A DNA stretch of 64,000 nucleotides. It comes from Halobaculum magnesiiphilum (GTDB lineage Archaea; Halobacteriota; Halobacteria; Halobacteriales; Haloferacaceae). Position numbers and translations under genes: made by a program. Of this stretch, positions 36,068-50,872 are shown piece by piece. The notes below the pieces were generated by a model, which worked only from the letters and a program-made list of their open reading frames with translations, did not search any database and had not been told where the DNA came from. Where the stretch lies: the NCBI RefSeq assembly GCF_019823105.1, contig NZ_CP081958.1, positions 992,001 to 1,056,000 of the forward strand. Reading direction: 5' to 3'. Within the stretch, counting starts at the first letter, position 1. Each line of letters begins with the position of its first letter.

Positions 36068-36529
36068 GTGTACCTCTCCCATCAGACGTGGCCGGAGTTG
36101 GGCGACTACGTCGCCGAGGAGTCGGTCGCGGTCGTCCCGTTGGGCTCCACCGAGCAGCACGGTCCGCACCTGCCGCTGGCGACGGACTATCTCATCGCAG
36201 AAGCGCTCGCCCGCGAGGCGACAGACCGCACCGGGTTCCTCTGTACGCCGCCGGTGCGGATCGCCGTCTCCGAGCACCACCGCCAGTTCCACGGCACGAT
36301 GTGGGTCGACCCGGGCGTGTTCCGCGATTACGTCGAGAGCTTCTCGCGCAACCTCGCGTACCACGGGGTCGACCGGATCGTCTACGTGAACGCCCACGGC
36401 GGCAACACCCAGCACCTCCGGGAGGTCGGCCGCCGCCTCCGCCGCGACGAGACGGCCTACGCGGTCGAGTGGATGGGAACTTCACACTGCTTCACTACGC
36501 TGCATAATCAGGCCCCTGCAGCAGCGTAA
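36068..36529 (+). pseudogene. Creatininase-family gene, 5' part, interrupted by the integrated element
   Basis: From GTG 36068 the frame encodes the first 136 residues of a creatininase-family amidohydrolase (PLGSTEQHGPHLPLATD metal-binding motif, GTMWVDPGVFRDYVES, VNAHGGN). At the conserved VEWMW motif it switches to element sequence, adds MGTSHCFTTLHNQAPAAA and stops at 36529. The missing C-terminal part is at 50476-50872. Metal ligands of the C-terminal half (the PKET segment) are absent, so the truncated product is not expected to be active. Archaeal members include FAPy deformylase (ArfB) of riboflavin/F420 synthesis; that assignment is possible but not shown. Confidence 0.93.
36466..36475 (+). 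other. Left attachment site core (attL)
   Basis: CGAGTGGATG lies in the host gene's VEWM codons (context GCGGTCGAGTGGATGGGAAC). The same ten bases are at the right junction. Immediately inside the element are two CTTCAC motifs (36480-36485 and 36490-36495) that could be integrase arm sites; this is only inferred from position. Confidence 0.82.
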
Positions 36530-36535
36530 CTATCG

Positions 36536-37321
36536 CTACTCGCTCCGCTCGGCCACGCGAGAAGCCGGCATCAAGTCCTCCGCATCCTGAGCTGCCATCC
36601 AGTCACACAGATGTACCAGCTGCTCGCTCGCCGCCTCGAACAGCTGCTTGCCCTTCTCAGCAGACGCGTCGGTCGGATCCCCGAAGCCACCGTTCCCCGA
36701 GTTGTCGACCGCGTCGTAGAACGTCCGCGCCCCGTGTTTCATCGTCTCGGCATCCTCTAAGTCCACGAGGCCACCGTCGCGCGCCTCCTCCAGCTTCTCC
36801 TCTCGAACGTTGTCCTCGATGTACCACACCATCGAGGTCTCCTTCGGACCAGCGTGTGGCCCGTTCTGCTCGAAGAGGTCGTCCACCAGATCTGGGATGC
36901 TATTATCCCACATCCACTCCACCGAGTACGCAACCTCATCGTCGTAGAGCCGCCGTCCCACTTCCTGCAGATGCTCCACGTTCCCCCCGTGAGCGTTCAC
37001 GAACACCACCCGGTCGATCCCGTGGTACGTCAGATTCCGAACGAGGCTCTCCATGTAGTCACGGAACACCGGCGCGTCGACCCACATCGTCCCCGCGAAC
37101 TGCTTGTGATGAGGGCTGACACCGATGTTGACCGTCGGCGTGCAGAGGTAGTCTCCCCGCTCTGCCGCCTCCTGCGCAAGTGCCTCGGCGATAGTGTGGT
37201 CGGTCGACTCAGGGAGGTGCGGGCCGTGCTGCTCGGTCGAACCGACGGGGACCAGCGCCAACGACGTCTCTTCGAGATACTCCTCCAACTCCTGCCAAGT
37301 GTGCGCCGCCAACTCCATCAC
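36536..37321 (-). CDS. Complete element-borne creatininase-family amidohydrolase
   Basis: A 261-residue creatininase-fold protein running in the opposite direction to the split host gene and ending about 60 bp from attL. Metal-binding and active-site motifs are intact: VPVGSTEQHGPHLPESTDH, FAGTMWVDAPVFRDY, VFVNAHGGNVEHL, VEWMWDNSIPDL and NGPHAGPKETSMV. It is clearly paralogous to the host protein over its full length, with well over half of aligned residues identical, but has many replacements and lower-GC codons, so it is not a recent host duplicate. Two adjacent ATGs leave the start uncertain by one residue. It probably supplies the function the insertion destroys. Confidence 0.92.
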   Translation of the reverse strand: MMELAAHTWQELEEYLEETSLALVPVGSTEQHGPHLPESTDHTIAEALAQEAAERGDYLCTPTVNIGVSPHHKQFAGTMWVDAPVFRDYMESLVRNLTYHGIDRVVFVNAHGGNVEHLQEVGRRLYDDEVAYSVEWMWDNSIPDLVDDLFEQNGPHAGPKETSMVWYIEDNVREEKLEEARDGGLVDLEDAETMKHGARTFYDAVDNSGNGGFGDPTDASAEKGKQLFEAASEQLVHLCDWMAAQDAEDLMPASRVAERSE

Positions 37322-37420
37322 GTCTCACGAACAGCGCCGCGCTGAATAACCTTCCTGTGGCCCCGGAAGCGCGCTCTACAGGGACCAGCACTATCGTCTC
37401 GCGGCGAGTACACCCAGTCG

Positions 37421-37615
37421 ATGGGCCTCTGGTACAACGGATACTGGTACGACGTCGACACCGAGGCGGAAGCCAAGCAGCTCCACGACGAGCGCGGCGT
37501 CACGATCGCCACCGACCAAGCGGAGGTCGAGGCTGCGATCACGGACGGTGAGTACAGCCCGCCCGATCAGCGCCTCCTCGCAGACCGTCTCACCGACGAG
37601 GACGGCGATGAGTAG
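37421..37615 (+). CDS. Hypothetical small acidic protein
   Basis: A 64-residue acidic protein. Its N-terminus GLWYNGYWYDVDTEAEAKQLHDERG is aromatic-rich and looks like a short beta-hairpin followed by a helix; the tail PPDQRLLADRLTDEDGDE is charged. It is divergent from the element's creatininase gene (99 bp apart). I do not recognise the family. Confidence 0.66.
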   Translation: MGLWYNGYWYDVDTEAEAKQLHDERGVTIATDQAEVEAAITDGEYSPPDQRLLADRLTDEDGDE

Positions 37616-37633
37616 CCTCTCCTCCCTTGTATA

Positions 37634-37733
37634 GAGAGCCACGACGTCGCGTTCTCTCGGCGACGACAAGATCTGGGCCACATCCTACGCAGTCAGGGTT
37701 CGATCCGGAGACGAGCCAAGCTCGTGGCTCTCT
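37634..37733. repeat. 12-bp inverted repeat in element intergenic region
   Basis: AGAGAGCCACGA (37634-37645) is perfectly complementary to TCGTGGCTCTCT (37722-37733), with 76 bp between. CTCTCGGCGA occurs directly repeated at 37655-37664 and 37731-37740, and the right arm also forms its own short hairpin (GAGCCA with TGGCTC). The surrounding 37616-37896 has no gene and becomes AT-rich near 37811-37828. A role in replication, partition or regulation is possible but unproven. Confidence 0.65.
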
Positions 37734-37896
37734 CGGCGAGGAGGGGAGGCACCCCCGTCGATAAACGCGAATCGCGGCCTACGAGTGGGGATAGTATCCT
37801 GAGGTCACAGGTAGAATATTTTGAAACCCCACATGACCCCCGGATCGAGGTTCCGAGGCCACTTTGTTTATCCGTGGCTGGTCCTGTTCCGCAGTT

Positions 37897-38139
37897 GTGT
37901 CATCACTCGTTGTGGATCGGGTCGTCGCCGCGATAGCAGACGCGGAAGGGAAGGATCCGCTGGACCTCGACTACGCTCTGCAGGACTACATCGACGCCGA
38001 CGCGATCCACCAGCTGGCGGCTCACGACGGCAGCTCGTGGACACTCCAGTTCGAGGTCCCGAACCACACTGTCACCGTCACGGGTGAAGGAGCGGTGCTG
38101 GTCGACGGCACCAAAGAGCGAGTCCCCAGCGACGACTGA
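37897..38139 (+). CDS. HalOD1 domain micro-protein
   Basis: An 80-residue protein from GTG 37897; the frame is open further upstream, but the extra residues are hydrophobic and non-acidic. LVVDRVVAAIADAEGKDPLDLDYALQDYIDADAIHQLA and LQFEVPNHTVTVTGEGAVLVDG match the HalOD1 output domain found in haloarchaeal signalling proteins and as stand-alone copies. A TTTATCC element at 37866-37872, about 25-31 bp upstream, suits a leaderless transcript. It directly precedes the restriction-modification gene (85 bp), which suggests possible co-regulation. Its biochemical role is unknown. Confidence 0.8.
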   Translation: MSSLVVDRVVAAIADAEGKDPLDLDYALQDYIDADAIHQLAAHDGSSWTLQFEVPNHTVTVTGEGAVLVDGTKERVPSDD

Positions 38140-38224
38140 CAGATCTACAACAGCGCTACCTCGGGAGTGAGTTCTCTCGCCCCGTCAGTGAATTTTATCA
38201 GGCGGCTATCGGAATACGGCTTCA

Positions 38225-41200
38225 ATGCCCGACGCGCTTCTGGCCGATCTTCTCGAAGCCTTCCACGAGATCCACGGAGAGGTTCGGTCGGAGGGAAGTG
38301 AGTTCGACTTCCGGTACAGCCTTGTTGACCACCTGTTCACGGACGCGCTCGGTTGGTCCCGACAAGAAGGAGAGGGCCACGTCAATTTTGAGGACGACCG
38401 GAAGGACGTCCTCTGTTACGACGACAGCGATCCGCCGTTCCCGGTCATCGTCTGTGAGACGAAGCGCCCCTCCCACGATCTCGGCCTCTCCGACGTCGAC
38501 CAGCTGGAAACGTACATGGTCGGTGTGGGGAGTGCAGAGTACGGGATCCTCACCAACGGCCACGAGTTCCGGATCTACGAGTACTCCTCCAGCGACCGTG
38601 AGCTGAGTTCGGTCGGGGGCTTCAGCGTGGACGACGTGGCCGAAGCCGAGTCACCGGCAGATCTCGGCTCGGAGGAGCAGGAAACGCTGGGTGCGCTGGA
38701 GTACTTCCACCACGACCGCTTCACCAACGTTGGGGACGCCGACTACTTCCAGCAGCGAGCGAAGGAGGTCCCAGTCCAGTACCAACCCGGTACGGACGAC
38801 GAGGGGTACGAACTATTCCTCGAAGCGGTGAAGCAGTCACTTGACGAACTGTCCTCGGTTATGGCCCGGTTCTTCGATGACTATCGGGACCGGCCGGAGG
38901 ACTCGTACCCTCGGGAGTTCCTCGACACGACCTTCCCCGACTGGAAGAGTTGGCGCGAGTACACCGGCAAGAGCGACGACGCGAAGCAGACGTTCTGCCG
39001 TGAGACTGCGTACATCCTTCTCAACCGGGCGCTGTTCGCTCGGATCGCCGAGGACAAGGAGATCGTCGGGAACACCCGGCTCTCGGGGCGTGGAATGGCC
39101 GACGCGCTCGGTCAGGGCGACGAGCGACCGTACCTTGAGGCCCTGATGGACACCTACGACCGGATCGATGACCACTACGGCGACCTCTACGAGCTGGGGA
39201 TCTTCGATTGGTGGTGGGTGAGCCGCGACAAGCGGCAGCGGTTCGACGCCGACGAGGAGCGTCGGCAGGAAGATCTGGAGGACGACTTGGACTACCGGCT
39301 CGGAGAAGTGTTCAAGCGACTGAACCGCTTCGACTTCGAGTACGTCAACCGCGACATCCTCGGCCACGTCTACGAGGACTACCTCCCACAGGACGAGCGG
39401 AAGGAACTGGGCGAGTACTACACGCCCATAGAGGTCATCCGCTATATGCTGGACGAGACTGGGTACAAGCCGACAGAGGGGATCGGTCGGCAGAAGATAC
39501 TCGACCCGGCGTGTGGCAGTGGTGGCTTCCTCACGGAGGCGTGTGAGCGACTGATCCAGCACTACATCCGCAAGTTCGGTCGGGAGAGCGTCCACTATCT
39601 GGACGCCGAGGAGGCGCGTACGATCCTCGAACGGATCGAGGACAACCTCTACGGGATCGACATCAACCCGTTTGCCGTCCACATCACGCAGATCAATCTC
39701 CTGTTCCGGACCGTCGATCTGTACGATAAGGTGACCGAGCAGGATCCATCCTACACGATGGACGGCTTCGAGATCCACGTCGCGGACACGCTGACTCCCA
39801 CCGTCCTCGAAAAGCAGGAAGGAGGCACCGAAGACGAGGGGCAGCAGTCACAGATCACGCAGTTCGCTAACTACAACGGTCGCGCTCAGGCGTTCATCGA
39901 TGACCGGGACGCGGTCGACCGGATCAAGGACGAGATCGAGTTCGACGTTGTGGTGGCGAACCCTCCGTACGTCCGAACCCAGAACATCAGCGGGCCGAAG
40001 GAGGAGTACGCGGAGCGGTACTCCACGGTCGAGAGCAAGAGCTTCGACATCTACGTGCCCTTCATCGAGCGGGGGCTGGAGTGGCTGACAGACGACGGCA
40101 GCCTCTCGTACATCTGTCCGAACCGCCTGCTCACACACGAGTACGCTGAGAGCGTCCGCGAACACCTTGCAGACGAGCCACTGACCCATCTGATCGATTT
40201 CAAGGATGTGGAAGTGTTCGACGCTGCCACTCCATACCCTTGTATCGTGTCCGTGGACAGAGACGAACCTGTGGACAGAGACGTCCACTGTGCCCGGTTT
40301 GCACACGAAAGAGAGGGGGTGTTGGACGAGATCTATCACTTGGAGGACTGGGAAACCCCAGAGGATGTGGACGAGTACGATCTGTTCACCTACCCGAAAG
40401 AAACGCTCCGTGAGGACAACGCCGACAACTACCTCCCGAGCTGGAAGCCGATGCCGATGGAGAGCGAGCGGCGTGTGTTCGAGTCGATCCGTGAATCCTC
40501 ATCCTTCCGGCTTCAGCAGGTCTCCTCTGAGGTGTTCGTGGGGATCCAAACGAGCGCGAACCCCGTGTACCTCGGCTTCATCGAGGGTGATGTCGATCCC
40601 GACGACGGAGTCGTCCAGTTCAGAGCGAAGGGTGACGACGAGGCCCAGCCCGTTGAGAAGTCCGTGCTACGACGGCTGCTCCGTGGGCCGGAGATCGACC
40701 GTTGGGGCGTTGACTGGGAGGGGCTGTGGCTGATCTTCCCCTACGACGCCGATGACGGTGACCCGGACTTGCTCTCGGAGGAAACTCTCCGGACCGACTA
40801 CGAACATACGTGGGAGTTCCTACAGGACCACAAGTCGTACTTGCAGGACCGCGACGTACAGGACGATCACTGGTGGGCGTTCGGCCGGCGGCAGAATATC
40901 GACAAAATGGAGCCGGACAAGATCATGACGAACATCATGAGTTCGTACAGCCGGTTCGTGGCTGACACCGATGGGGAGTACTACTTCCTCGGTGGTGGCA
41001 ACGCCGGTGGATACGGGGTTCAGCTCATGCAGGAGTACGCTCCCACTTCGGAGGACCACCTGTACTACGTGGCGCTGCTGAATTCCTCTGTGCTGGAGTT
41101 CTATCACAAGCACATCGCGCCGATCTTCGGCGGGAAGTACTACTCCTACAACAAGCGCTACTTGGAGCCGCACCCGGTCGTCGTGCCGGACAACGCCTCG

Positions 41201-41734
41201 GACGAGGCTGTCGAGGAGCTGGCGGAGCAAGTCAAGGAGACCCGCGAGCAGATCACCGACTTGGAGTACAGGACCGACGACGTTCGGAACTACCTCCCGG
41301 ACTACGACCGCGACAGCTCGGTCCTTGATCTGGCCCAGTCAATCAACCTCGACGGCGACGACTATCGGCAGGGACCGATCCGCAAGGACGTGAAGATGGA
41401 TGTCGAAACCGCCGAGGAGGTCTATCAGGTCGTGATGAAGCGGAGCCATGAGATGGGCTTCGAGTCCGAACTCGTCCGCGACTTCGTGTTTGAGTTACTG
41501 ACGGCACAGGACCGGCGGTTGACCCGCTCTGAGATCCTCGGGATGGACACGCCGACTCGTGACGACGTCGTGGATCTGATGGAGGAGTACCGGGGCGACG
41601 AGGACAAGATCGAGGAGCTGAACGAGGAGTTCGACCGACTTCGTGGCGAGCTGGACGAGACGATCCTCAGCGACGTGTACGAGCTCAGCGAGGAGGACGC
41701 AGAGGTCGTGGACGAGTTCCTGAAGGTCTGGTAG
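38225..41734 (+). CDS. Single-chain type IIG restriction-modification enzyme
   Basis: A 1169-residue fusion. Residues about 25-120 form a PD-(D/E)xK nuclease: D61 and the VIVCETKRP motif with E78/K80, as in HsdR-like N-termini. Residues about 390-620 are an N6-adenine methyltransferase with motif I DPACGSGGFLTEACE (about 427) and motif IV ANPPYV (NPPY at 579-582), plus the YTPIEVIRYM motif X. The C-terminal half has the target-recognition and helical spacer organisation of Eco57I/MmeI-type enzymes. It recognises, cuts and methylates DNA on its own. It could stabilise the element in the host and restrict incoming DNA. The recognition sequence cannot be read. Confidence 0.9.
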   Translation: MPDALLADLLEAFHEIHGEVRSEGSEFDFRYSLVDHLFTDALGWSRQEGEGHVNFEDDRKDVLCYDDSDPPFPVIVCETKRPSHDLGLSDVDQLETYMVGVGSAEYGILTNGHEFRIYEYSSSDRELSSVGGFSVDDVAEAESPADLGSEEQETLGALEYFHHDRFTNVGDADYFQQRAKEVPVQYQPGTDDEGYELFLEAVKQSLDELSSVMARFFDDYRDRPEDSYPREFLDTTFPDWKSWREYTGKSDDAKQTFCRETAYILLNRALFARIAEDKEIVGNTRLSGRGMADALGQGDERPYLEALMDTYDRIDDHYGDLYELGIFDWWWVSRDKRQRFDADEERRQEDLEDDLDYRLGEVFKRLNRFDFEYVNRDILGHVYEDYLPQDERKELGEYYTPIEVIRYMLDETGYKPTEGIGRQKILDPACGSGGFLTEACERLIQHYIRKFGRESVHYLDAEEARTILERIEDNLYGIDINPFAVHITQINLLFRTVDLYDKVTEQDPSYTMDGFEIHVADTLTPTVLEKQEGGTEDEGQQSQITQFANYNGRAQAFIDDRDAVDRIKDEIEFDVVVANPPYVRTQNISGPKEEYAERYSTVESKSFDIYVPFIERGLEWLTDDGSLSYICPNRLLTHEYAESVREHLADEPLTHLIDFKDVEVFDAATPYPCIVSVDRDEPVDRDVHCARFAHEREGVLDEIYHLEDWETPEDVDEYDLFTYPKETLREDNADNYLPSWKPMPMESERRVFESIRESSSFRLQQVSSEVFVGIQTSANPVYLGFIEGDVDPDDGVVQFRAKGDDEAQPVEKSVLRRLLRGPEIDRWGVDWEGLWLIFPYDADDGDPDLLSEETLRTDYEHTWEFLQDHKSYLQDRDVQDDHWWAFGRRQNIDKMEPDKIMTNIMSSYSRFVADTDGEYYFLGGGNAGGYGVQLMQEYAPTSEDHLYYVALLNSSVLEFYHKHIAPIFGGKYYSYNKRYLEPHPVVVPDNASDEAVEELAEQVKETREQITDLEYRTDDVRNYLPDYDRDSSVLDLAQSINLDGDDYRQGPIRKDVKMDVETAEEVYQVVMKRSHEMGFESELVRDFVFELLTAQDRRLTRSEILGMDTPTRDDVVDLMEEYRGDEDKIEELNEEFDRLRGELDETILSDVYELSEEDAEVVDEFLKVW

Positions 41735-41865
41735 TCCGGTTTTGGCTCTCGCGCCGACGTTCGCGTTCTAAGCCCCGGGTCAGATCGCTACGGTGTATCC
41801 CACGCAGCCTGATCCTCAACGCCGAGACGAGGCGACGTCGTGCGAGCTACGGGAAGCGACGGTCG

Positions 41866-43431
41866 CTACCAGTCGGCCTTTCGGGCGTCAGCTGTGTTCC
41901 CCGGCCTGAACGCTCCCTCCTCTTCCTCGGGGAAGCTCATGAAGTGGCGTTCGATGGCCACCTCGTCTTCTTCCTCACGCTGATCCGGTCGGAGCATCCT
42001 CGTTTCTCGGAAGGTGTCGAGACCGTCAGGCACCTCCTCACCGTAGGACAGGATGAACTCTCCCTCCAGTTCATGCAACGCTTCAACGAGTCGATCCTGA
42101 TCACCGGATGTGAATCCGCTGTCGTAGTCCCCTTCGTGGTCCACATACGGTGGATCAAGGTAGAAGCAGGTGTCGGGACTGTCGTGTTCGCGGAGGACCT
42201 CCAAGAAGTCCCGATTCTCAACGACCACAGGATCAAGTTCACCAGCAAACGCCGACGGAGAGATATCGAAGCTGTCGATGAAATACGGGATATCATCGCG
42301 TTTGAACCGCTTCTGGAACTCCGTGAGTTGCTGCTTCTGGTTCCTGAACTTCTCAGCCCTGTTGGGGTACGCCTTTGGATAGGCGAAGCCACCACTTCCG
42401 TCGTCTCTGGGTCGCAGTTGGCTGAATGACTTGAAGAACACGACGGCGGCTCGTTCGACATCGTCCTTCGGACGCCAGCCCTCTTTCCAGTGGACCGTCC
42501 AGTTGTCGTGCTGTTCCTTCGTGAGTTCGATCCTCTCAAGCTCACGCTCAAGGTCGGATGCCTCGTCACGGAGGACCTTGAAGAAGTTCGAGATCGGTTC
42601 CCGGATGTCGTTCAATACCTCCTGCTGTGCTGGGGGTTTGTTGTAGAGAACCGCAGCAGAGCCACCGAACACTTCCACGTACTTGTCGTGTTCAGGGAAC
42701 TTGGAAACGAGCCAGCGAGCGATCGATGCCTTCGAGCCACGGAAATTGAAGATCCGGTCGCCAGCCATCCACTCCTCGCTCTTGATGGCCCCAGCCCGAC
42801 GGTGTGCCTCTTCAACCGTACTGTGAGCGGGATCGACCTCCGTTTCGCCCTGCACTAACATCTTCCACTGCTCACGGGCCGTCTCTACAGCGTCGGAATC
42901 CAGATCTTCTGGGTTCCGTAGCCCCCACAGACCTTCGCTTGCGGCTCGTTTCACGAGCCTCCCCTTTCGGAAGGTCTCTTCGTTGAAACTCACGTGCTCA
43001 CAGGCCCTCCCGTTTGTAGGCTTGTCCGAGTCTCTTCCCAGAACTGGGGAAGTTTTCTCGCCCCGCTTTCGACGACTTGTTTCTTCACTGCATACTTCCA
43101 TCCATGCGAGAGCGTACTCGATCTCGCCACCGGGGGTCATCTCCGGATTGTCGTTTGCCTGCAGCACGGTCAGCTGCTCAGCGTGCTTGTCGGCGAACGA
43201 GTCAACGATCTCCACCTCGATCTCGTCCCAACCGCGCTCCTGAGCTACGTCGATCACTCGTGGATCGGTTAGCAGCACGTTCTCTGAGTCGGTGAAGTGG
43301 CTCTCGTCTATCACCTTCGGGGTGTTCTCGAAGGTTCCCTCGCCAGTCGGCTCGGGGCGCTGCTCTCGCTTGTACGTCGTGTCGATCAGGGGGTGCAGGG
43401 TCAGGTCCTCGACTGCTCGCCATTCAGGCAT
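41866..43431 (-). CDS. ParB-like domain fused to Dam-family adenine methyltransferase
   Basis: A 521-residue protein. Residues about 35-115 resemble a ParB-like nuclease or specificity module (VIDVAQERGWDEIEVEIVDSFADKHAEQLTVLQANDNPEM), though the DGHxR motif is missing. Residues about 225-510 are a D12-class methyltransferase: FNFRGSKASIARWLVSKFPEHDKYVEVFGGSAAVLYNKPP (FxGG at 255-258) and YLDPPYVDHEGDYDSGF (DPPY at 426-429), with the IREPISNFFKVLRD segment. It likely methylates adenine in element or host DNA. The ParB-methyltransferase pairing is known in mobile elements; it may guard against restriction or mark replicating DNA. Confidence 0.85.
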   Translation of the reverse strand: MPEWRAVEDLTLHPLIDTTYKREQRPEPTGEGTFENTPKVIDESHFTDSENVLLTDPRVIDVAQERGWDEIEVEIVDSFADKHAEQLTVLQANDNPEMTPGGEIEYALAWMEVCSEETSRRKRGEKTSPVLGRDSDKPTNGRACEHVSFNEETFRKGRLVKRAASEGLWGLRNPEDLDSDAVETAREQWKMLVQGETEVDPAHSTVEEAHRRAGAIKSEEWMAGDRIFNFRGSKASIARWLVSKFPEHDKYVEVFGGSAAVLYNKPPAQQEVLNDIREPISNFFKVLRDEASDLERELERIELTKEQHDNWTVHWKEGWRPKDDVERAAVVFFKSFSQLRPRDDGSGGFAYPKAYPNRAEKFRNQKQQLTEFQKRFKRDDIPYFIDSFDISPSAFAGELDPVVVENRDFLEVLREHDSPDTCFYLDPPYVDHEGDYDSGFTSGDQDRLVEALHELEGEFILSYGEEVPDGLDTFRETRMLRPDQREEEDEVAIERHFMSFPEEEEGAFRPGNTADARKADW

Positions 43432-43470
43432 GGGCCGACTTCGCCGTCGGGAACCCTCGTAAGTTCGTAG

Positions 43471-45468
43471 CTAACCCCATTCCGCCTCCAGCACGTTTCC
43501 ATGCCCGTCTCCCTGCTGACCTTGATCAGCACGCTCCTGCTCCCGGAGCTTCTTGAGGCACGCCTCGCACCACGGATGCCAGTCAAGCGGGAACACGTGG
43601 ATCTCCTTCTCGATCCACTCCGCCGGTTGGTACGTACCGCAGAGCGGCTCCACGTCGTCCGAGTCCTCATCCGGAATATGATGCTTCTTCGACTTCCGAC
43701 CCTCACCCCGAACGACCGTCGGGAACCGCTCGCGGAGGGTCTCGGGGGTGTACTTGTTGTCCGTGCTGCTCTCGTTGGTGGAAGTTGTCGTGCTCATGTC
43801 GGTGCCTCCGTCAGTCCGAAGGTGTACTTCACCGCTGCTGCGCTCGGTTTCCTCACGTGGATCGTACTCCTCGCCGTTGCACTTCACGCAGCAGGCGTTC
43901 TCAGGGTCGGGGAGTGTGGACGGGTAGACGAGGTACTTGCGACCGACCCGAGCTTGCTTGACGATCCCGTCCCGTCGCAGTCGACGTAGTGCCTCCTCGT
44001 GCGTGTCCCGATCCCGACTCGGGTCAAGTTGCTGGCAAGCTTCTACGACCTCGTTCTGTTCGGGGTATCCGTGGTTCCCAACACCCTCCCCCATATTCTC
44101 GACTTCAGGTCGGCGGTTTTCGTGTTCGCCGATCTTCCCGCCGTCGTGTGGCGATTCGCGTGTCGGTACGCACCCCGAGTTTGGGGTAGTACCGTGCACA
44201 GGAGTGGGGGGGTTATCGAGGAGTTCAGCCAGTCTATCTCGATCGAGATCGAACTCGTAGAGTACAGCCGCTGTATCGCGTATCCCGTCGAGGTCCGGAT
44301 CCTCCGGGTCGACGGTGATCTTGCCAACCAATAGGTTGACTGCGAAACGAACGTGGCCGTAGGTAACGACGGAATAGTCACCCCATCGTTCTCGATCGTC
44401 GCCCTCCTGTCGATTCAGGAATCGTTGGAACTTCCCTCGATCAGCAGCTTCGAAGGCCCGGCCGAGCCGATCCCGTTTGTACGACTCGCCCTCCTCCAGC
44501 CACCGCCGAACTTGCCCATCCTCGGTGTACTTGTGCCCGTGTACGTACCGCTCGAAGGTGGCCCGTGTGATCTGTTTCGCTCGCTGGCCCTCCTCGTTCC
44601 CGAAGTACACGACGACCTCGTAGAGGCGGGTGAGGGCCATCAGCTCCTGCAGGCTGCGATCTATCTTCGGTCCGTCTTCCCCCTCTTTCCAGAGGAGATT
44701 CTCGTACCCGCCGTCACCTCCCTGCTGCATCCCTACGAGCGAGTTGAAGCCCGGGGTGTGCTCGTGCTGGAGGTCCCGAAGGAATGCGTCCCCGACATCG
44801 GCCAGTTCCTCGTCCACCTCGGTCAGCACCTCGATCGCCGCGTGTCCACTCGTTCCGGTGCTCACGTCCTCGGCCGGAACGACGCCGAGTATGTCGAGGA
44901 TCTCTCGGGCCGTCTCGCGCCGTAGCTTGGGCGCGTCGGGATCGGTCGCCACAAGTCGGTACGAACCACGCCCGGAACCGTTGCACGGCTTAGACGGCCG
45001 ACAGCGGCCGTGATCGATCTCCGACCCCGGAGCGAGTACGTGTCCGTCCGTCAGCAGCTCCAGATCGTGATCGCCGTCATCGGTGAGATCGTGCTTCGTC
45101 TTCACCGAGTCGAGCAGCTGGTAGGCCTCTTCGCTCACCTTCACCAGCCGATTCCGTCCTTCGTGTACCGTGTCCCACGTAGCCAGCGCGTGCTGATCCA
45201 CGATATCCCGAAGTCGGTCGGGTAGTACGCCCCGCTGCTCCACGTCAAACGCCACGAGTCGGGTCCCGTTGGGAGGTTCCCGTCCGAGGGCCACGCCGAC
45301 GTTCCCCCCGCCGTCGAACCAGCTCTGCGCCTCAGACGGTATGAGCGGGTTATCGAGAAAGCCCTTGACGCCCTCCTTCGTGTCCTCGCGGACTCGGGTG
45401 AATACCGCACCTTCGAGGGGTAGGTCCGAGGCCGAGCCGTTATGCCTCTCACCCTCTACTGACGACAT
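43471..45468 (-). CDS. PrimPol-type replication initiation protein
   Basis: A 665-residue protein starting at the ATG complementary to 45466-45468, preceded by GGAGGTGG (a good Shine-Dalgarno). An in-frame ATG ten codons upstream is less likely. The N-terminal third has bifunctional primase/polymerase motifs: GNVGVALGREPPNGTRLVAFDVE (metal-binding DVE at 75-77) and LELLTDGHVLAPGSEIDH. The middle is helical and contains a winged-helix-like segment (ACQQLDPSRDRDTHEEALRRLRRDGIVKQ). The end has Cys pairs (CCVKC, CEAC) that may bind zinc. No helicase Walker motifs are seen. It probably starts replication of the excised element. Confidence 0.78.
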   Translation of the reverse strand: MSSVEGERHNGSASDLPLEGAVFTRVREDTKEGVKGFLDNPLIPSEAQSWFDGGGNVGVALGREPPNGTRLVAFDVEQRGVLPDRLRDIVDQHALATWDTVHEGRNRLVKVSEEAYQLLDSVKTKHDLTDDGDHDLELLTDGHVLAPGSEIDHGRCRPSKPCNGSGRGSYRLVATDPDAPKLRRETAREILDILGVVPAEDVSTGTSGHAAIEVLTEVDEELADVGDAFLRDLQHEHTPGFNSLVGMQQGGDGGYENLLWKEGEDGPKIDRSLQELMALTRLYEVVVYFGNEEGQRAKQITRATFERYVHGHKYTEDGQVRRWLEEGESYKRDRLGRAFEAADRGKFQRFLNRQEGDDRERWGDYSVVTYGHVRFAVNLLVGKITVDPEDPDLDGIRDTAAVLYEFDLDRDRLAELLDNPPTPVHGTTPNSGCVPTRESPHDGGKIGEHENRRPEVENMGEGVGNHGYPEQNEVVEACQQLDPSRDRDTHEEALRRLRRDGIVKQARVGRKYLVYPSTLPDPENACCVKCNGEEYDPREETERSSGEVHLRTDGGTDMSTTTSTNESSTDNKYTPETLRERFPTVVRGEGRKSKKHHIPDEDSDDVEPLCGTYQPAEWIEKEIHVFPLDWHPWCEACLKKLREQERADQGQQGDGHGNVLEAEWG

Positions 45469-45585
45469 GACGCCACCTCCCCTACCCCACCCAACCACAC
45501 CTCAGCGGGAAGGGCGTCAACTCTTCCACCAGTTCGTTCGGGGGCGACCACCCCCCGGACACCTGCTTCAGTCATAGTGTACCCA

Positions 45586-45717
45586 TCAGCCCTCGCGCTC
45601 CTCCTCGATCTTCATCAGGTGCTGGAGGTACTGGTCCTGTGTGCGGCTCCCCCGACGCTCGTTCACCATCGTTCTGGTCACCGGGCGGACGCCCAGCATG
45701 ACGCTTGCTCTCGACAT
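45586..45717 (-). CDS. Basic micro-protein upstream of the replication gene
   Basis: Translation from the ATG complementary to 45715-45717 gives 43 residues: SRASVMLGVRPVTRTMVNE followed by RRGSRTQDQYLQHLMKIEEEREG, a basic N-terminal part and a helical, acidic end. A TATA-like TTATAA at 45743-45748 is 26-31 bp upstream, as expected for a leaderless transcript, which supports this as a gene. Between it and the replication gene a 39-codon frame (45456-45575) could also be read, but it has no clear start signal. Such small leader genes near rep often regulate copy number; that is inference. Confidence 0.58.
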   Translation of the reverse strand: MSRASVMLGVRPVTRTMVNERRGSRTQDQYLQHLMKIEEEREG

Positions 45718-45950
45718 CAGCAATATCTCAGTCTTTTGAGCGTTATAACAGTTGGTCGAGGATCAACGTATTTGTGGGCACAGAGCCGTTAAACCGACGG
45801 GACCAGTACATAGAGTCGCCGGTGAGAGTCCGGCTACTTCCGTTGTTCATAGCCGGGAGGATGAGGTGTCCTCCTGTCTCTTCCTTCAGCCCAGATCGCT
45901 CTCACAAGCCGTGAGAGGGGGTATTACTCCGCGCCAACTACGATCAGCCG
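45718..45950. promoter_or_regulatory. Divergent promoter region with hairpins; candidate replication origin
   Basis: The region lies between the minus-strand rep leader and the plus-strand small-gene operon. It contains TTATAA at 45743-45748 (minus promoter) and TATTAC at 45922-45927 (plus promoter, about 24-29 bp before the ATG at 45951). Hairpins are GGAGGA/TCCTCC (45856-45861 with 45869-45874) and the perfect CTCTCAC, loop AAGCC, GTGAGAG (45899-45917). Being AT-richer, structured and beside the PrimPol gene, it is the best candidate for the element's replication origin; no direct evidence exists. Confidence 0.5.
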
Positions 45951-46418
45951 ATGCCCCCAACTGGAAGAGATCCAACCCCCGAGGAGCTTCGTGACGAGTT
46001 CAAGTCCGCGGTCGAGGAAGTGGTCGAGGAGTCCGACCTCGCCACCAGACAGGACGTGTACGACGAGATCGCCAAGCAGACCGAAGACGAGGAGGAGCCG
46101 CCGGAGGCCCCGGAAGAGCTACCCGACGAGGCGGGTGAGCCCGACAGCCTGATCGAGCAGCTCGAAGAGGAGGGCGTACCGGACGATCTGATCGAGGCGA
46201 TCAAGGAGTACCTCGACTCCGACGCGGTGGCGAAGTCGCTCGGGGTCCGTCACACCGACTCGTACCTCGCCAGCACACTCGAAGATGGAGCCGAGGTACT
46301 CGCCGAGAAGCGCAAGGAAGCACAGGAGCGGCAGGACGCCATCGCCGAGGAGGTCGCTGCCAACGCCGAGGAGTCCGATGTCCTCGACGCAACCGTGTAC
46401 GCCAACGAGGACTTCTGA
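45951..46418 (+). CDS. Hypothetical acidic helical protein
   Basis: A 155-residue protein with very high Glu/Asp content. Two predicted helical regions (PEELRDEFKSAVEEVVEESDLATRQDVYDEIAKQ and ALAEKRKEAQERQDAIAEEVAANAEE-like sequence near the end) flank a Pro/Glu-rich linker. The helices look like coiled coils. It is the first of four closely packed genes, with the next ATG one base after its stop. No family is recognised. Confidence 0.72.
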   Translation: MPPTGRDPTPEELRDEFKSAVEEVVEESDLATRQDVYDEIAKQTEDEEEPPEAPEELPDEAGEPDSLIEQLEEEGVPDDLIEAIKEYLDSDAVAKSLGVRHTDSYLASTLEDGAEVLAEKRKEAQERQDAIAEEVAANAEESDVLDATVYANEDF

Positions 46419-46419
46419 G

Positions 46420-46692
46420 ATGGCGGGAAGCGACTTCGGCCGTGTCCGCTACGTCCGCTGGGCTGAGCAGGAGAAGCCGCCAGCGTCCAGCCCCAACGCC
46501 GAGGGCGACCGTGTGTTCACGTCGCGCGACTCTCGCCGCCACAAGCGCTCGAAGGCCGTCACAGGCCCGTCGGGCCACCAGTACCGTTTCCGGGGCGCAC
46601 TCGGCCAGACGTCGCAATGGCTCCCGCTCAAGTCGATCGAAGACCTCGATGCCTTCGAAGCCGAGCCCGAGTACGAGGTCGAGCGAGCGTGA
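46420..46692 (+). CDS. Hypothetical small basic-centred protein
   Basis: A 90-residue protein starting at the ATG one base after the preceding stop. GRVRYVRWAEQEKPPASSPN and RVFTSRDSRRHKRSKAVTGP are basic and could bind nucleic acid; the end (LPLKSIEDLDAFEAEPEYEV) is acidic. The stop overlaps the next GTG start (GTGA). Translational coupling with its neighbours is the main support that it is real. Function unknown. Confidence 0.68.
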   Translation: MAGSDFGRVRYVRWAEQEKPPASSPNAEGDRVFTSRDSRRHKRSKAVTGPSGHQYRFRGALGQTSQWLPLKSIEDLDAFEAEPEYEVERA

Positions 46693-47057
46693 GCCGCCCG
46701 ATCAAGTCCCTGTCGCTCGACTCGGCCTCCACGACCGGAGCGGGTGACGTGATCGCCTCGAAGGGACACGACAACGTGCTGCTGTTCGTGATCGCCCGGA
46801 ACCTCGATCCAGCGGACACGTTCGCCGTGGAGCTGGAGCACACCCTCAACGGCGACGACTGGGATACGCTGGCCACCGTGACCGAAGCCGATGTCGACGG
46901 GGAGACCGCGACGGAGTTCGTCTCGAACGTTGCCGTGGACGAGCTACGCGCCTCTCTCACCGAGATCACCGACGACTCGGGCGGGGATCTGGAGGTGGAC
47001 GCCTTCGTGTCCGCCAACGGGAACCCGAGTGCCGGCTACTCGTCCCGCCGAGCATGA
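46689..47057 (+). CDS. Predicted beta-sandwich protein, possibly virion/assembly-like
   Basis: A 122-residue protein from GTG 46689. It alternates hydrophobic and polar residues as a beta-sandwich would: NVLLFVIARNLDPADTFAVELEHTLNGDDWDTLATVTE. The segment with an acidic patch and DDW resembles small structural proteins of tailed phages that carry a DGxNW strand, but the match is only of general pattern. Overlaps its upstream (GTGA) and downstream (ATGA) neighbours. No partner structural genes are recognised, so the idea is weak. Confidence 0.62.
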   Translation: MSRPIKSLSLDSASTTGAGDVIASKGHDNVLLFVIARNLDPADTFAVELEHTLNGDDWDTLATVTEADVDGETATEFVSNVAVDELRASLTEITDDSGGDLEVDAFVSANGNPSAGYSSRRA

Positions 47058-47275
47058 CTCCGGAGGAGCTGCTCGAAGAGTGGGAGTCCGGGGAGCGATC
47101 TGGAATGCGCCCTGCTCGGATCCGAGAGGTCCGCGGAGATCTGGCCCGGGTGACTGGCCAACCGATCCCGCGTCGACTATCCGAGATCGAGGGGTGGCTC
47201 TCACGCAAGAAGCCACACCTCACGCAGATCTTTCGGGAAGTCGTGGAAGAACACAGAGACTCTTCTGAAACCTAA
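47054..47275 (+). CDS. Hypothetical small helical protein
   Basis: A 73-residue protein from ATG 47054, which overlaps the preceding stop. EELLEEWESGERSGMRPARIREVRGDLARVTGQPIPRRLSEIEGWL is mostly helical with mixed charge and a basic middle, so nucleic-acid binding is possible. It ends the four-gene block. A low-GC gene of different character follows 18 bp later. No family is recognised. Confidence 0.68.
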   Translation: MTPEELLEEWESGERSGMRPARIREVRGDLARVTGQPIPRRLSEIEGWLSRKKPHLTQIFREVVEEHRDSSET

Positions 47276-47293
47276 TATCGTGGTTGGAATCGG

Positions 47294-48259
47294 TTGCGTT
47301 TGCTATACCTGAAGAGATTCCTCAAAAATTTCATTTGCTGGGTGGCCAACTACGGGGTCATGGTGACTGGTCTTTATGCTGCACTTGCAAGCGCTGCAAG
47401 TGTCTTCATCGGAATTCTCGCAGCACTATTAGCCAGCAACCTCGCGAATCTTTCCACCCAACGGGAGCGTGTTGAAAAACGGATCGAAGCTATCGACGCA
47501 CGTTTAGAAAATTTGGACACTCAATACCAGCAGTTCAGGGAAGAGATGGAAGAAATCCGCGAGGAAGAAGAAGCGATTGAGGCTCGTCAGACTGCTGAAG
47601 ACGATGTTGACTCCTTTATCGATTCGTACGTCGGTTCAGAATGGAACCCAGACGCTGATTCAGTGTCAAAAACAGAAATGGAGGCTGCACTCCGTGGCTT
47701 CCTCAATGAGGCACCGAACGAGTACCACTATGAAGAGCTTGAACGGCGTATTGACGATGTACGTGATGAGCTTGAGCCAACTGGTTTGATGGGTCCAACG
47801 CCCTCCATACCACCAGACGCGGCAATCATCGCCAGCAACAATCAGATCGAACATGAATGGAAGATTCACCGAAATCAGCGGTTTAACCGTGCATATCGGC
47901 GATGGATCCAGACTATGACAGAGATCCGCTCTTTACAGGGTGAGCGAACAAAATTAGTCAACCGTCACGAATCGCTCGACCCCAGACAGTATCGCAATAC
48001 GCTGGCCGCAGTAGCAGCTCCAATCGTGTTCTCTGTTGGAGTGCCGCTTCTCTTCTACTTTTTCAGGGCGATCGACCGGACTATTCTTCAGTTGCAGCCT
48101 TGGGTTGAGCCAACAATAGTCGGGGCGTCATGGGTTATTGGGCTGTTTGTCGTTTTGTACCACCTCTGGCAGGAGGTGTCTGAGGACCGGATTGAGCTTC
48201 CAGAGAGTCCTGATACGGAACTAGACGGTGACACAGAAGGCAACCTACCGGCAGAGTAA
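47294..48259 (+). CDS. Coiled-coil membrane protein of low GC content
   Basis: A 321-residue protein; the frame opens with TTG 47294. One membrane span lies near the N-terminus (about 20-45: GVMVTGLYAALASAASVFIG). A heptad-rich coiled coil follows (about 55-105: ERVEKRIEAIDARLENLDTQ and EEMEEIREEEEAIEARQ), then a helical middle, then two C-terminal spans (about 238-262 NTLAAVAAPIVFSVGVPLLFYFF; about 275-297 TIVGASWVIGLFVVLYHLW). GC is markedly lower than all neighbours (roughly half), with AT-rich codons, so it probably came from a different source than the rest of the element. Function unknown; a defence role is one possibility. Confidence 0.72.
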   Translation: MRLLYLKRFLKNFICWVANYGVMVTGLYAALASAASVFIGILAALLASNLANLSTQRERVEKRIEAIDARLENLDTQYQQFREEMEEIREEEEAIEARQTAEDDVDSFIDSYVGSEWNPDADSVSKTEMEAALRGFLNEAPNEYHYEELERRIDDVRDELEPTGLMGPTPSIPPDAAIIASNNQIEHEWKIHRNQRFNRAYRRWIQTMTEIRSLQGERTKLVNRHESLDPRQYRNTLAAVAAPIVFSVGVPLLFYFFRAIDRTILQLQPWVEPTIVGASWVIGLFVVLYHLWQEVSEDRIELPESPDTELDGDTEGNLPAE

Positions 48260-48431
48260 GTTCGTTTAATATCTAAAAACGACCCCTACAGAGTAACTCC
48301 CAGATCTGGGGAAGGGTAGGTCCACTCGAAGTAGAGCAACTGTCGAGAGGGTGTACTTGAGAACGAGCCCTTCAGGACCTACCACAGCGGTCTCACACGC
48401 ACGCCGTTTCAGATCTCCACCGTGTCCGCAG

Positions 48432-48719
48432 TCAACCGTGGTACTCGATGCTCTCGACTTCGGTCCCGTCGGTCATCGGATCTGCGCCCTGCTCGTGGAT
48501 CCAGACGACCTCGACGGTGTGCGCTTCGTTCCATGTGAGGACGTGGGTGCCGTTGTCGCCGCTGAGCGATAGGGTGAACGTGGACTCACCCGGTCCCGGG
48601 GAGTACGTCTCCTTGTCGAGCACGGTGTACGTCGTGCCGTTCACGGCGATCTCGTCGTCCACGTCGACGGCGTCGAAGTCGGGCAGGGTTTCCCGAAGGT
48701 CGGACACGGTGACGGGCAT
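48432..48719 (-). CDS. Hypothetical small beta-rich protein
   Basis: A 95-residue acidic protein: PVTVSDLRETLPDFDAVDVDDEIAVNGTTYTVLDKETYSPGPGES followed by beta-strands FTLSLSGDNGTHVLTW and HTVEVVWIHEQG. The ATG complementary to 48717-48719 is preferred because a TATA box sits 25-30 bp upstream and the extended frame adds a non-acidic leader. It stands alone between the coiled-coil protein and the integrase. No recognised family. Confidence 0.72.
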   Translation of the reverse strand: MPVTVSDLRETLPDFDAVDVDDEIAVNGTTYTVLDKETYSPGPGESTFTLSLSGDNGTHVLTWNEAHTVEVVWIHEQGADPMTDGTEVESIEYHG

Positions 48720-48743
48720 AACCCTCGCTTGAGCAGGGGCCGG

Positions 48744-48749
48744 TAAATA
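48744..48749 (-). promoter_or_regulatory. TATA box of the 95-residue protein gene
   Basis: Minus-strand sequence TATTTA, within AATATTATTTACC, centred about 28 bp upstream of the ATG. This matches the position of an archaeal TATA box for a leaderless transcript. Confidence 0.6.
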
Positions 48750-48891
48750 ATATTCAGTAGAGCGCCCCAGATCCATCGTCGCCGTAGCTTCGGTTCTAAG
48801 GCGGGGGTTGATCAGCTACGGTGACAACCACGCGGAACAGGATCGGAGCCGACGTCGCGCCAACGTCGCACCGAGAACGTGGAAGCTGTAC

Positions 48892-49848
48892 TCAGGCCGT
48901 CTCCGGACCTTCCGGGGACGGGTTGAACTTCTTCATAGCGGCCTGCACCTCCTCGTTCTTGAACTGGAGGTACTGCTGGGTCGTGTCGATCTTCTCGTGG
49001 CCGAGATGAAGCTGCAGCCGGCGGATGTCGATGTCGTTCTTGATCGCTTGGACGGCGTGACCGTGCCGGAAGGCGTGTGCTGTGATCCGGTGGCGCTTCT
49101 GTCCGCCTCCGTCGGTGTACATGACGTCCTGTATCCCGGCGTTCTCGGCGGCCTTCTTCACGATCTGGTTGATAGCGTGGTCACTGAGTCGCTCGGCTCG
49201 CTCGGACACGAAGAGGTACGGGGACTCCTCGGCGGGCTTGTACGCGCTCCGGTAGCCGCTATCCATCCACTGGGTCAGCAGGAAGTCGAGGGAGGGCTGG
49301 TAGTACACGATCCGCCACTCGTCGGTCTTCGGTGCGTACACTCGGATCGAGCGAGCCTCACGGTCGATGTTGTCGATCTCGATGATCGCCAGCTCACCCC
49401 GTCGAACACCAGTCTGGTAGAGCAGCCGGAGGATGAGTTCGTTCCGAAGTGTGGGGGTTGGTACGTGTTCGGCCATCGCCTCCTTGTCGTCCGGGGTGAC
49501 GTACACGATATCGTCGGTCTGGTGCTTCTTCCCGCCGGTGCTCTTGGTGTAGTTGCTCCGCTTGAGGTCCTCGAACGGGGACTCCTCGACCATATCCCAC
49601 ACGCCGGCGAGGAAGTCGTACAGCAGCTTCACCGAGTCATGCCGGCTGGCTGCGGTCGAGTTGGAGAACTTCTTGCCTTGCTCACGGAGGAAACGGTGGA
49701 TGTCACGACTCCCGACCTCGGTGACCTCCAAGTCGTGCTTGTCCAGCCAGTCATGGTAGATACGCAGATCTGACTTCCGATTCTCGTAGGTCCCGTACGC
49801 CTTCGATGCTTCCACATCGGAGAGGTAGTCCTCGATGAGCGGGTCCAT
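48892..49848 (-). CDS. Tyrosine recombinase (integrase) of the element
   Basis: A 318-residue XerC/D-type recombinase. The N-terminal SAM-like core-binding domain (about 1-105) is followed by the catalytic domain with Arg in QTGVRRGEL (R149), Lys in APKT (K174), HAFR (H258, R261), LGHEKID (H284) and the nucleophile in TTQQYLQF (Y293). It integrates and excises the element at the creatininase gene. Its start lies 3 bp after the stop of the RHH regulator, so the two are one transcript. It ends about 640 bp from attR including that gene. Confidence 0.93.
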   Translation of the reverse strand: MDPLIEDYLSDVEASKAYGTYENRKSDLRIYHDWLDKHDLEVTEVGSRDIHRFLREQGKKFSNSTAASRHDSVKLLYDFLAGVWDMVEESPFEDLKRSNYTKSTGGKKHQTDDIVYVTPDDKEAMAEHVPTPTLRNELILRLLYQTGVRRGELAIIEIDNIDREARSIRVYAPKTDEWRIVYYQPSLDFLLTQWMDSGYRSAYKPAEESPYLFVSERAERLSDHAINQIVKKAAENAGIQDVMYTDGGGQKRHRITAHAFRHGHAVQAIKNDIDIRRLQLHLGHEKIDTTQQYLQFKNEEVQAAMKKFNPSPEGPETA

Positions 49849-49851
49849 CGG

Positions 49852-50409
49852 TCACACCTCCTTGTAATAGCGCCGTTCGTCGTGGCCGTCGTCGTGGTGG
49901 ACGCGGGCCGTGTTGGACTGGAGCTTGTCGAGTGCCCGCTGCACCTGTAGCTCGTTGCTGTCCGTGAGCGCGGCGACGTCGGCCACACGTCCGGAATAGG
50001 CGATCGGGCCGCCTTGTTCCTCGGGGAGCTTCGCCGGGAGGGACTGTTCGGGAGCGTTGTACTCCTCGATCTGGGCCTTCGAGGGGAGGATCGTGAAGAC
50101 CTCATTCGCCAGCTCGGTCACTTCGGGATCTTCCTGTACGGCCTGCTCGATGGTTGAGAGGCGGGCTTCAAGGCTCTGAAGCCGGTTGTTCGTCGTGTGA
50201 GCCTCTGAAATGAGTTCAGACACTTGTGCCGCGACTTCACTGTCAGTACTGCCGCGGGCTGGCGCGTGCTGGCCGTTGACTTCCTTCTGGACGGAGAGCC
50301 GGACGAGGTGGCTCAACGAGTCGACGTTGGGGTTCTCGGCGGCGTATTCCTCCCACTGCTCCTTCTGGTCGGGCGACAGTAGGAGGTTGAAACGCTGGTT
50401 TTCGGACAT
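49852..50409 (-). CDS. Ribbon-helix-helix regulator with C-terminal winged-helix-like domain
   Basis: A 185-residue protein from the ATG complementary to 50407-50409. The first 45 residues (ENQRFNLLLSPDQKEQWEEYAAENPNVDSLSHLVRLSVQKEV) fit a MetJ/Arc-type RHH DNA-binding domain: one beta-strand and two helices. A coiled coil follows (about 60-105), then a helical end with SGRVADVAALTDSNELQVQRALDKLQSN that looks like a winged helix. The frame extends upstream by 20 residues, but the palindromic operator argues against using them. It probably represses the integrase operon, including itself, and might also act as an excision factor. Confidence 0.78.
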   Translation of the reverse strand: MSENQRFNLLLSPDQKEQWEEYAAENPNVDSLSHLVRLSVQKEVNGQHAPARGSTDSEVAAQVSELISEAHTTNNRLQSLEARLSTIEQAVQEDPEVTELANEVFTILPSKAQIEEYNAPEQSLPAKLPEEQGGPIAYSGRVADVAALTDSNELQVQRALDKLQSNTARVHHDDGHDERRYYKEV

Positions 50410-50413
50410 GGTG

Positions 50414-50450
50414 GTACTACCGGGTAGTACTACTGGGTGGTCGTATATAC
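50414..50450 (-). promoter_or_regulatory. Promoter with palindromic operator of the regulator-integrase operon
   Basis: GTACTAC, centre CGG, GTAGTAC (50414-50430) is a perfect 7-bp dyad. A second, imperfect copy follows at 50428-50440 (TACTACTGGGTGG against TACTACCGGGTAG). GTATATAC at 50443-50450 is a TATA box on the minus strand. A transcript starting about 27 bp from it would begin inside the dyad, just before the ATG at 50409. Repeated short sites are typical for RHH proteins, so autoregulation is likely. Confidence 0.68.
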
Positions 50451-50475
50451 GTCCTACGTACGTTCCCAACTACGC

Positions 50476-50485
50476 CGAGTGGATG
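50476..50485 (+). other. Right attachment site core (attR)
   Basis: CGAGTGGATG in context ACTACGCCGAGTGGATGTGGAA. Downstream it continues as the host creatininase codons WNESIPDL. Joining host sequence left of attL to sequence right of attR restores an uninterrupted VEWMWNESIPDL reading frame. Confidence 0.82.
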
Positions 50486-50872
50486 TGGAATGAATCGATC
50501 CCGGACCTCGTCTCGGACGTGTTCGAGCACAACGGCCCCCACGGCGGCCCGAAGGAGACGGCGATGATCATGCACATCGCCGAGGAGTTGGTCCGGACGG
50601 ATCAACTGGAGTCGGCCCGCGACGGCGGAATCGTCGATCTCGCGGACGCGAACCTCCGGACCAACGGCGCGCGGACCTTCTACGACTCGGCGGACAACTC
50701 CGGGAACGGCGTCTTCGGCGACCAGACCGACGCAACGCCCGAGAAGGGGGAGAAGCTGTTCGAGGCCGCGACCGACCAGCTCGTCCACCTGCTGGAGTGG
50801 ATCGACGACCAGCCGTTCGCGGACCTCATGCCGAAATCGCACGTGGATCCACAGCCCGGCAGCCGCCGATGA
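50476..50872 (+). pseudogene. Creatininase-family gene, 3' part, separated from its start
   Basis: The open frame after attR encodes the C-terminal half of the creatininase-family protein: WNESIPDLVSDVFEHNGPHGGPKETAMIMHIAEELV and then GARTFYDSADNSGNGVFGDQTDATPEKGEKLFEAATDQL, ending at TGA 50870-50872. It aligns with the matching region of the element-borne paralogue. No start or promoter for it is visible in the plus direction at the element's right end. Together with 36068-36475 it would make an intact protein of about 265 residues after excision. Confidence 0.93.

Follow-up and report, generated by a model that had tools for sequence, protein, structure and literature searches.

Site-specific integrating elements are thought to limit harm to their hosts by entering tRNA genes or the ends of genes, which are then rebuilt. 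In tRNA- and tmRNA-targeting islands (Islander), the split gene is made whole again by sequence carried in the island (PMC4383910), and streptococcal ICEs (PMC4701971) and thaumarchaeal iMGEs (PMC6563490) occupy one end, 3' or 5', of a housekeeping protein gene. Archaeal intragenic sites have also been described, the attB of virus BJ1 lying within an HMG-CoA reductase gene (PMC8371274). Some prophages disrupt genes and excise in a regulated manner, as at comK in Listeria and, for SpyCI, at mutL (cited in PMC4701971).

The element described here lies in a window of 64 kb (the whole stretch of DNA that was analysed, positions 992001–1056000 of a 2.97 Mb contig from a haloarchaeal genome). It shares with Islander islands a tyrosine integrase, direct-repeat att sites and, presumably, the retention of host function after integration. 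Unlike in those islands, the break in the middle of the host frame is left unrepaired, and the element brings a second, whole orthologue. As for the streptococcal ICEs and thaumarchaeal iMGEs, protein-coding genes serve as specific targets of a tyrosine integrase, but those elements leave the product nearly unchanged whereas here the cut falls mid-coding and at conserved motifs. An archaeal integrase with an intragenic protein-coding site is also known from BJ1; the passages of PMC8371274 consulted report no carried replacement gene for sites of this type. Inactivation of the host gene by integration is shared with the comK and mutL prophages; there function comes back by excision, whereas here an intact copy is present while the element is integrated. 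The anatomy of integrase and att sites is of a known kind. No earlier record of breaking a gene in its middle and supplying the whole orthologue, nor any description of full target-gene replacement by an integrating element, was found in the open-licence literature.

The host gene belongs to the creatininase family. It starts at 36068 on the forward strand and is broken after codon 136 (N-terminal fragment, 36068–36475), and the rest resumes on the same strand at 50476 as a C-terminal fragment (50476–50872) without the first ~135 codons of the gene. The ten bases CGAGTGGATG are present at both junctions on the forward strand, as a left att core (36466–36475) and a right att core (50476–50485). 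Rejoining the flanks at CGAGTGGATG gives a single 264-residue frame without a stop, and the left and right fragments match positions 2–132 and 153–238, respectively, of the Pfam Creatininase model. An earlier sequence-only reading had described this frame as split with a repeat at both junctions, and the rejoined open frame bears this out. The interval it gave, 36068–50872, covers the whole split gene together with the element and is corrected here, the element proper extending from ~36466 to 50475. A search for intact copies of the split gene recovered it uninterrupted in five congeneric genomes (88–91% protein identity to the host gene), and where the flanks were aligned, in four congeneric genomes, DNA similarity of 78–84% runs straight through the joined site. 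The window element thus has att sites in direct repeat, and relatives show the matching empty site. It is ~14 kb long and mostly of 57–63% GC, compared with 69–76% for most of the surrounding chromosome, and in the predicted attP the core is flanked by the arms GTTCCCA...TGGGAAC. There is no tRNA gene anywhere in the 64-kb window, and the split gene does not have its end regenerated by the element, the left frame running into the element and stopping there at 36529.

Near the right end of the element is the tyrosine integrase gene (48892–49848, reverse strand; Phage_integrase, E 3.7e-29). Of the catalytic residues, R149, K174, H258, R261 and H284 are invariant in five relatives, and Y293 occupies the nucleophile position and is aligned in four of the five. 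A suicidal integrase of the SSV type was ruled out, the integrase gene being intact and the att sites lying outside it. Next to it is a gene for a 205-aa partner (49852–50469, reverse strand) that has no Pfam match and whose N-terminus appears ribbon-helix-helix-like by eye. A homologue of ~200 residues directly adjoins nearly all the related integrases examined (L009–L037), and the partner is a candidate accessory factor for integration or excision. The element also carries cargo of a defence type between 38225 and 43431, comprising a 1169-aa Type IIG restriction enzyme-methyltransferase or PglX-like protein (38225–41734, forward strand; similarity to phrog_16674) and a 521-aa D12-class adenine methyltransferase (41866–43431, reverse strand). 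A 675-aa protein with no family match (43471–45498, reverse strand) and a 321-aa coiled-coil, probably membrane protein with weak coiled-coil matches only (47294–48259, forward strand) are also encoded. No structural PHROG was matched among the element proteins scanned, which include the small ORFs in part, and a provirus was rejected as no virion structural genes were seen among these proteins.

The replacement gene lies at 36536–37321 on the reverse strand (ATG at 37318), 60 bp from the left junction. As the sequence-only reading had it, this is a complete copy of 261 codons just inside the junction and in the opposite orientation; it covers positions 3–237 of the Creatininase model with 223.7 bits (Pfam PF02633) and shares 67% and 64% identity with the two halves of the host gene. 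The different codon use noted at the same time is seen in the third-position GC of 0.84/0.80, against 0.94/0.91 for the host halves. Other creatininase-family members of the genome reach at most 46% identity to the rejoined host protein and at most 42% to the cargo, leaving the latter as the sole complete copy of this gene in the genome. The motifs STEQHGPH...TD and NAHGGN align with the solved structure 3no4, the first also with 1q3k, and the metal-binding pattern of creatininase fold hydrolases is kept in proteins of this group. A plasmid search with the cargo returned ordinary host-like copies only (best 68%), a phage search only distant matches (25–26%), and IMG/VR, scanned with both the cargo and the integrase alignment, gave no match. 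The nearest copies to the window cargo (for example in G300) have no related integrase within 1.5 kb.

A ten-base repeat taken alone could arise by chance. The integrase was sought across the order, in 293 genomes whose integrase neighbourhoods were then checked, and two further genomes, G051 and G138 (Halobellus salinus, also the only match in a contig scan with the integrase alignment), were found with an integrase beside the same creatininase gene, cut at the same codons and the same eight bases, CGAGTGGA, which form the core common to the three elements, and with an intact copy inside. The element DNA flanking the core differs between the genomes, and a shared site under these conditions argues strongly against both a chance repeat and a single assembly join. 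In both genomes a single strand carries, in order, the N-terminal fragment ending in CGAGTGGA, the partner, the integrase and a complete creatininase gene; the window cargo, by comparison, occupies the other end of its element and faces the other way. A small HNH-like ORF (by eye) is found between the integrase and the replacement gene in both (L041 15877–16093; L044 4700–4487). The C-terminal fragments start with CGAGTGGA but sit elsewhere, on a separate contig in G138 and 830 kb away in G051 (G051:C1, 719763–720134 and 1549486–1549893; L062, L057). Since the G051 genome is a single contig, its element or host chromosome was probably rearranged after integration, separating the ends. GC is low across both halves of the complete genes in G051 and G138 (0.52; 0.48/0.45) while the host fragments stand at ~0.70, which argues that the whole gene arrived with the element.

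The ancestry of these copies was examined in a tree of 52 creatininase sequences, picked by similarity so that the exact donors are uncertain. The rejoined host genes each group with their own genus or family, and the G051 and G138 cargo genes cluster together beside the host genes of another lineage (family f4). The window cargo falls on a separate, well supported branch, so that capture of the gene happened at least twice. Between G051 and G138 the cargo proteins share 89% identity despite saturated silent sites, with a dN/dS of ~0.03 (dS saturated), as expected of copies maintained as working genes. Where it could be assessed, in this creatininase pair, the pattern of substitution is that of purifying selection on the cargo.

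The same arrangement was sought at 103 related-integrase loci (63 from a first survey and 40 from two further family searches) with a test that named no gene and asked for a complete frame to which two complementary fragments match, both on one strand and separated by more than 1.2 kb. Most loci gave no such signal; elements longer than the stretch examined, or rearranged as in G051 and G138, escape this test. It fired at six of the 103, and in five (the window, G225, G484, G146 and G464) the fragments enclose an integrase. The sixth, at L195, has no integrase inside, looks like tandem paralogues and was set aside, as was an archaellin/pilin-like pair in G005, the sole and spurious match of a test of flanks against element. 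Four cases were thereby added to the creatininase gene, at three other targets whose names are a reading of the sequence and not the outcome of a family search. An ABC-2-type permease is cut at GGAACGAGTAC (WNEYI) in G225 and G484, a HhH-GPD-type DNA glycosylase (AlkA-like, by eye) at TTCCTCATGT (EMFLM) in G146, and a zinc-ribbon protein of ~52 residues at CCAYTACA in G464, where the two core copies differ at one base. In total, target and cargo match in seven elements and four target families, so that the earlier proposal of a metabolic protein gene as target, with a whole divergent replacement carried along, is supported and extends beyond the window. The four additional elements are small (~3–5 kb) and hold little beyond the integrase, the partner and the replacement gene.

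In G225 and G484 the permease is present only as two fragments plus the cargo, and the intact gene is found in ten relatives (four in the genus of G225 and six in that of G484). The repeat in G484 is exact over 15 bases (GGAACGAGTACATCC); the right-side repeat in G225 carries a one-base insertion, with which the rejoined frame would be shifted. In both, the ATG of the cargo overlaps the end of the truncated host frame, at its last codons or its stop, an arrangement that would suit expression of the cargo from the host operon; in G225 an ABC ATPase gene lies directly upstream. A third genome, G485, has an insert of ~2.6 kb with an integrase at the same GGAACGAGTAC site of the same permease (L210 13400–16100, G485:C60), and no complete permease copy exists in the insert or elsewhere in that genome. 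The replacement is thus not obligatory, or has been lost there, and G485 may be either a cargo-less relative or a deletion product. Separately, a uracil-DNA-glycosylase gene in G007:C4 is truncated at an NAVKCFP motif (L112 16102–16521; L009 3037–3456) beside an integrase 55% identical to that of the window. No second copy was found within 36 kb in G007, and this gene is possibly a fifth protein-gene target.

We consider it highly probable that these elements split a conserved gene in mid-frame and carry a whole foreign orthologue that offsets the damage of integration. At the level of sequence, integration at a fixed site in three genomes, splitting of the gene and an intact orthologue inside the element are all apparent, as are the foreign ancestry of the cargo in the creatininase cases and the recurrence with four target genes. 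In the mechanism we propose, a tyrosine integrase would recombine at a short site (8–15 bp) inside a conserved host protein gene, within a conserved motif of the protein (VEWMW in the creatininase, WNEYI in the permease, EMFLM in the glycosylase), and integration would split and inactivate the target. The complete, independently acquired orthologue carried by the element would let the host keep the function and would remove the cost of integration, and the native gene would be exchanged, host by host, for a foreign version. This account supposes a cargo protein that is produced and takes over from the host gene, a cargo retained because the target is disrupted, and an element able to excise.

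The target had been proposed to be ArfB, in which case the cargo would rescue an essential gene and the element would act as an addiction module. The gene is indeed found in most of the order (an orthologue in most of 392 Halobacteriales), and the split gene and the cargo are the best matches of the genome to the ArfB model NF033501. These matches are nevertheless far below the cut-off of 180 (30.2 bits for the cargo and 33.8 for the host N-terminal fragment), a threshold that is weak taken alone, being passed in only one of four control genomes giving a match, and the MftE (138.9 of 172) and creatininase models describe the cargo better than the ArfB model does. Of haloarchaeal arfB genes the literature offers only a predicted one, HVO_1235 (PMC8305020). 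Roughly 50 of 345 near-complete Halobacteriales genomes (counted by eye) are without the orthologue and hold only more distant paralogues, and arfA (GTP cyclohydrolase III) is present in all 15 of these that were tested. With the gene absent from about one genome in seven and arfA still present, the essential-ArfB reading is not supported; the other targets (glycosylase, permease and zinc-ribbon) would also seem unlikely to be essential. We therefore regard this explanation as very unlikely; what the cargo probably eases is the cost to the host when a common, though dispensable, gene is lost.

Other explanations leave the ArfB question aside. Haloarchaea hold several creatininase-family genes and genomic islands do acquire host genes, so that the cargo might be an ordinary accessory gene that is a paralogue of its target by coincidence; a match of target and cargo in seven elements and four target families, five of them from the gene-blind scan, makes this highly improbable, and, for the creatininase and the permease, the cargo is the nearest type of homologue that the genome has, not just any paralogue. 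We give still less credence to a pair of tandem host paralogues, one of which was entered by the element so that the intact copy is the host's own. The distance of just 60 bp between cargo and left junction in the window would fit such a pair, but the cargo lies between the att cores, its GC resembles that of the element and it branches with other families; only one close copy is present in relatives, the congeneric empty sites contradict a tandem pair, and the integrase of G051 and of G138 lies between the fragment and the intact copy. An altered att core in the cargo might instead close the site to the element itself and to competitors of the same specificity, with rescue secondary. At least one base differs from the host core in the window, G051, G138, G225 and G484 cargo, and the G146 cargo core differs more widely. 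At ~70% DNA identity, however, a perfect core of 8–12 bases is not expected anyway, so these changes carry little weight, and a site could be closed without a full coding sequence kept under selection; we consider this alternative unlikely.

Replacement of a gene broken by the element's own integration is accordingly the reading we prefer. An integrase whose element brings a whole replacement orthologue would be free to use any conserved mid-gene motif. It seems fairly likely that a guild of haloarchaeal integrases strikes mid-gene sites in many conserved genes, each with a swappable replacement, and so forms a general engine of orthologous displacement at the native locus. Replacing gene transfer would then have a concrete mechanism, the native gene giving way to a distant orthologue without homologous recombination, and such elements would leave a signature that can be searched for, a gene in two pieces that enclose its complete foreign twin. 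The creatininase case, with its three genomes, would be a natural test of how interchangeable foreign orthologues are in vivo.
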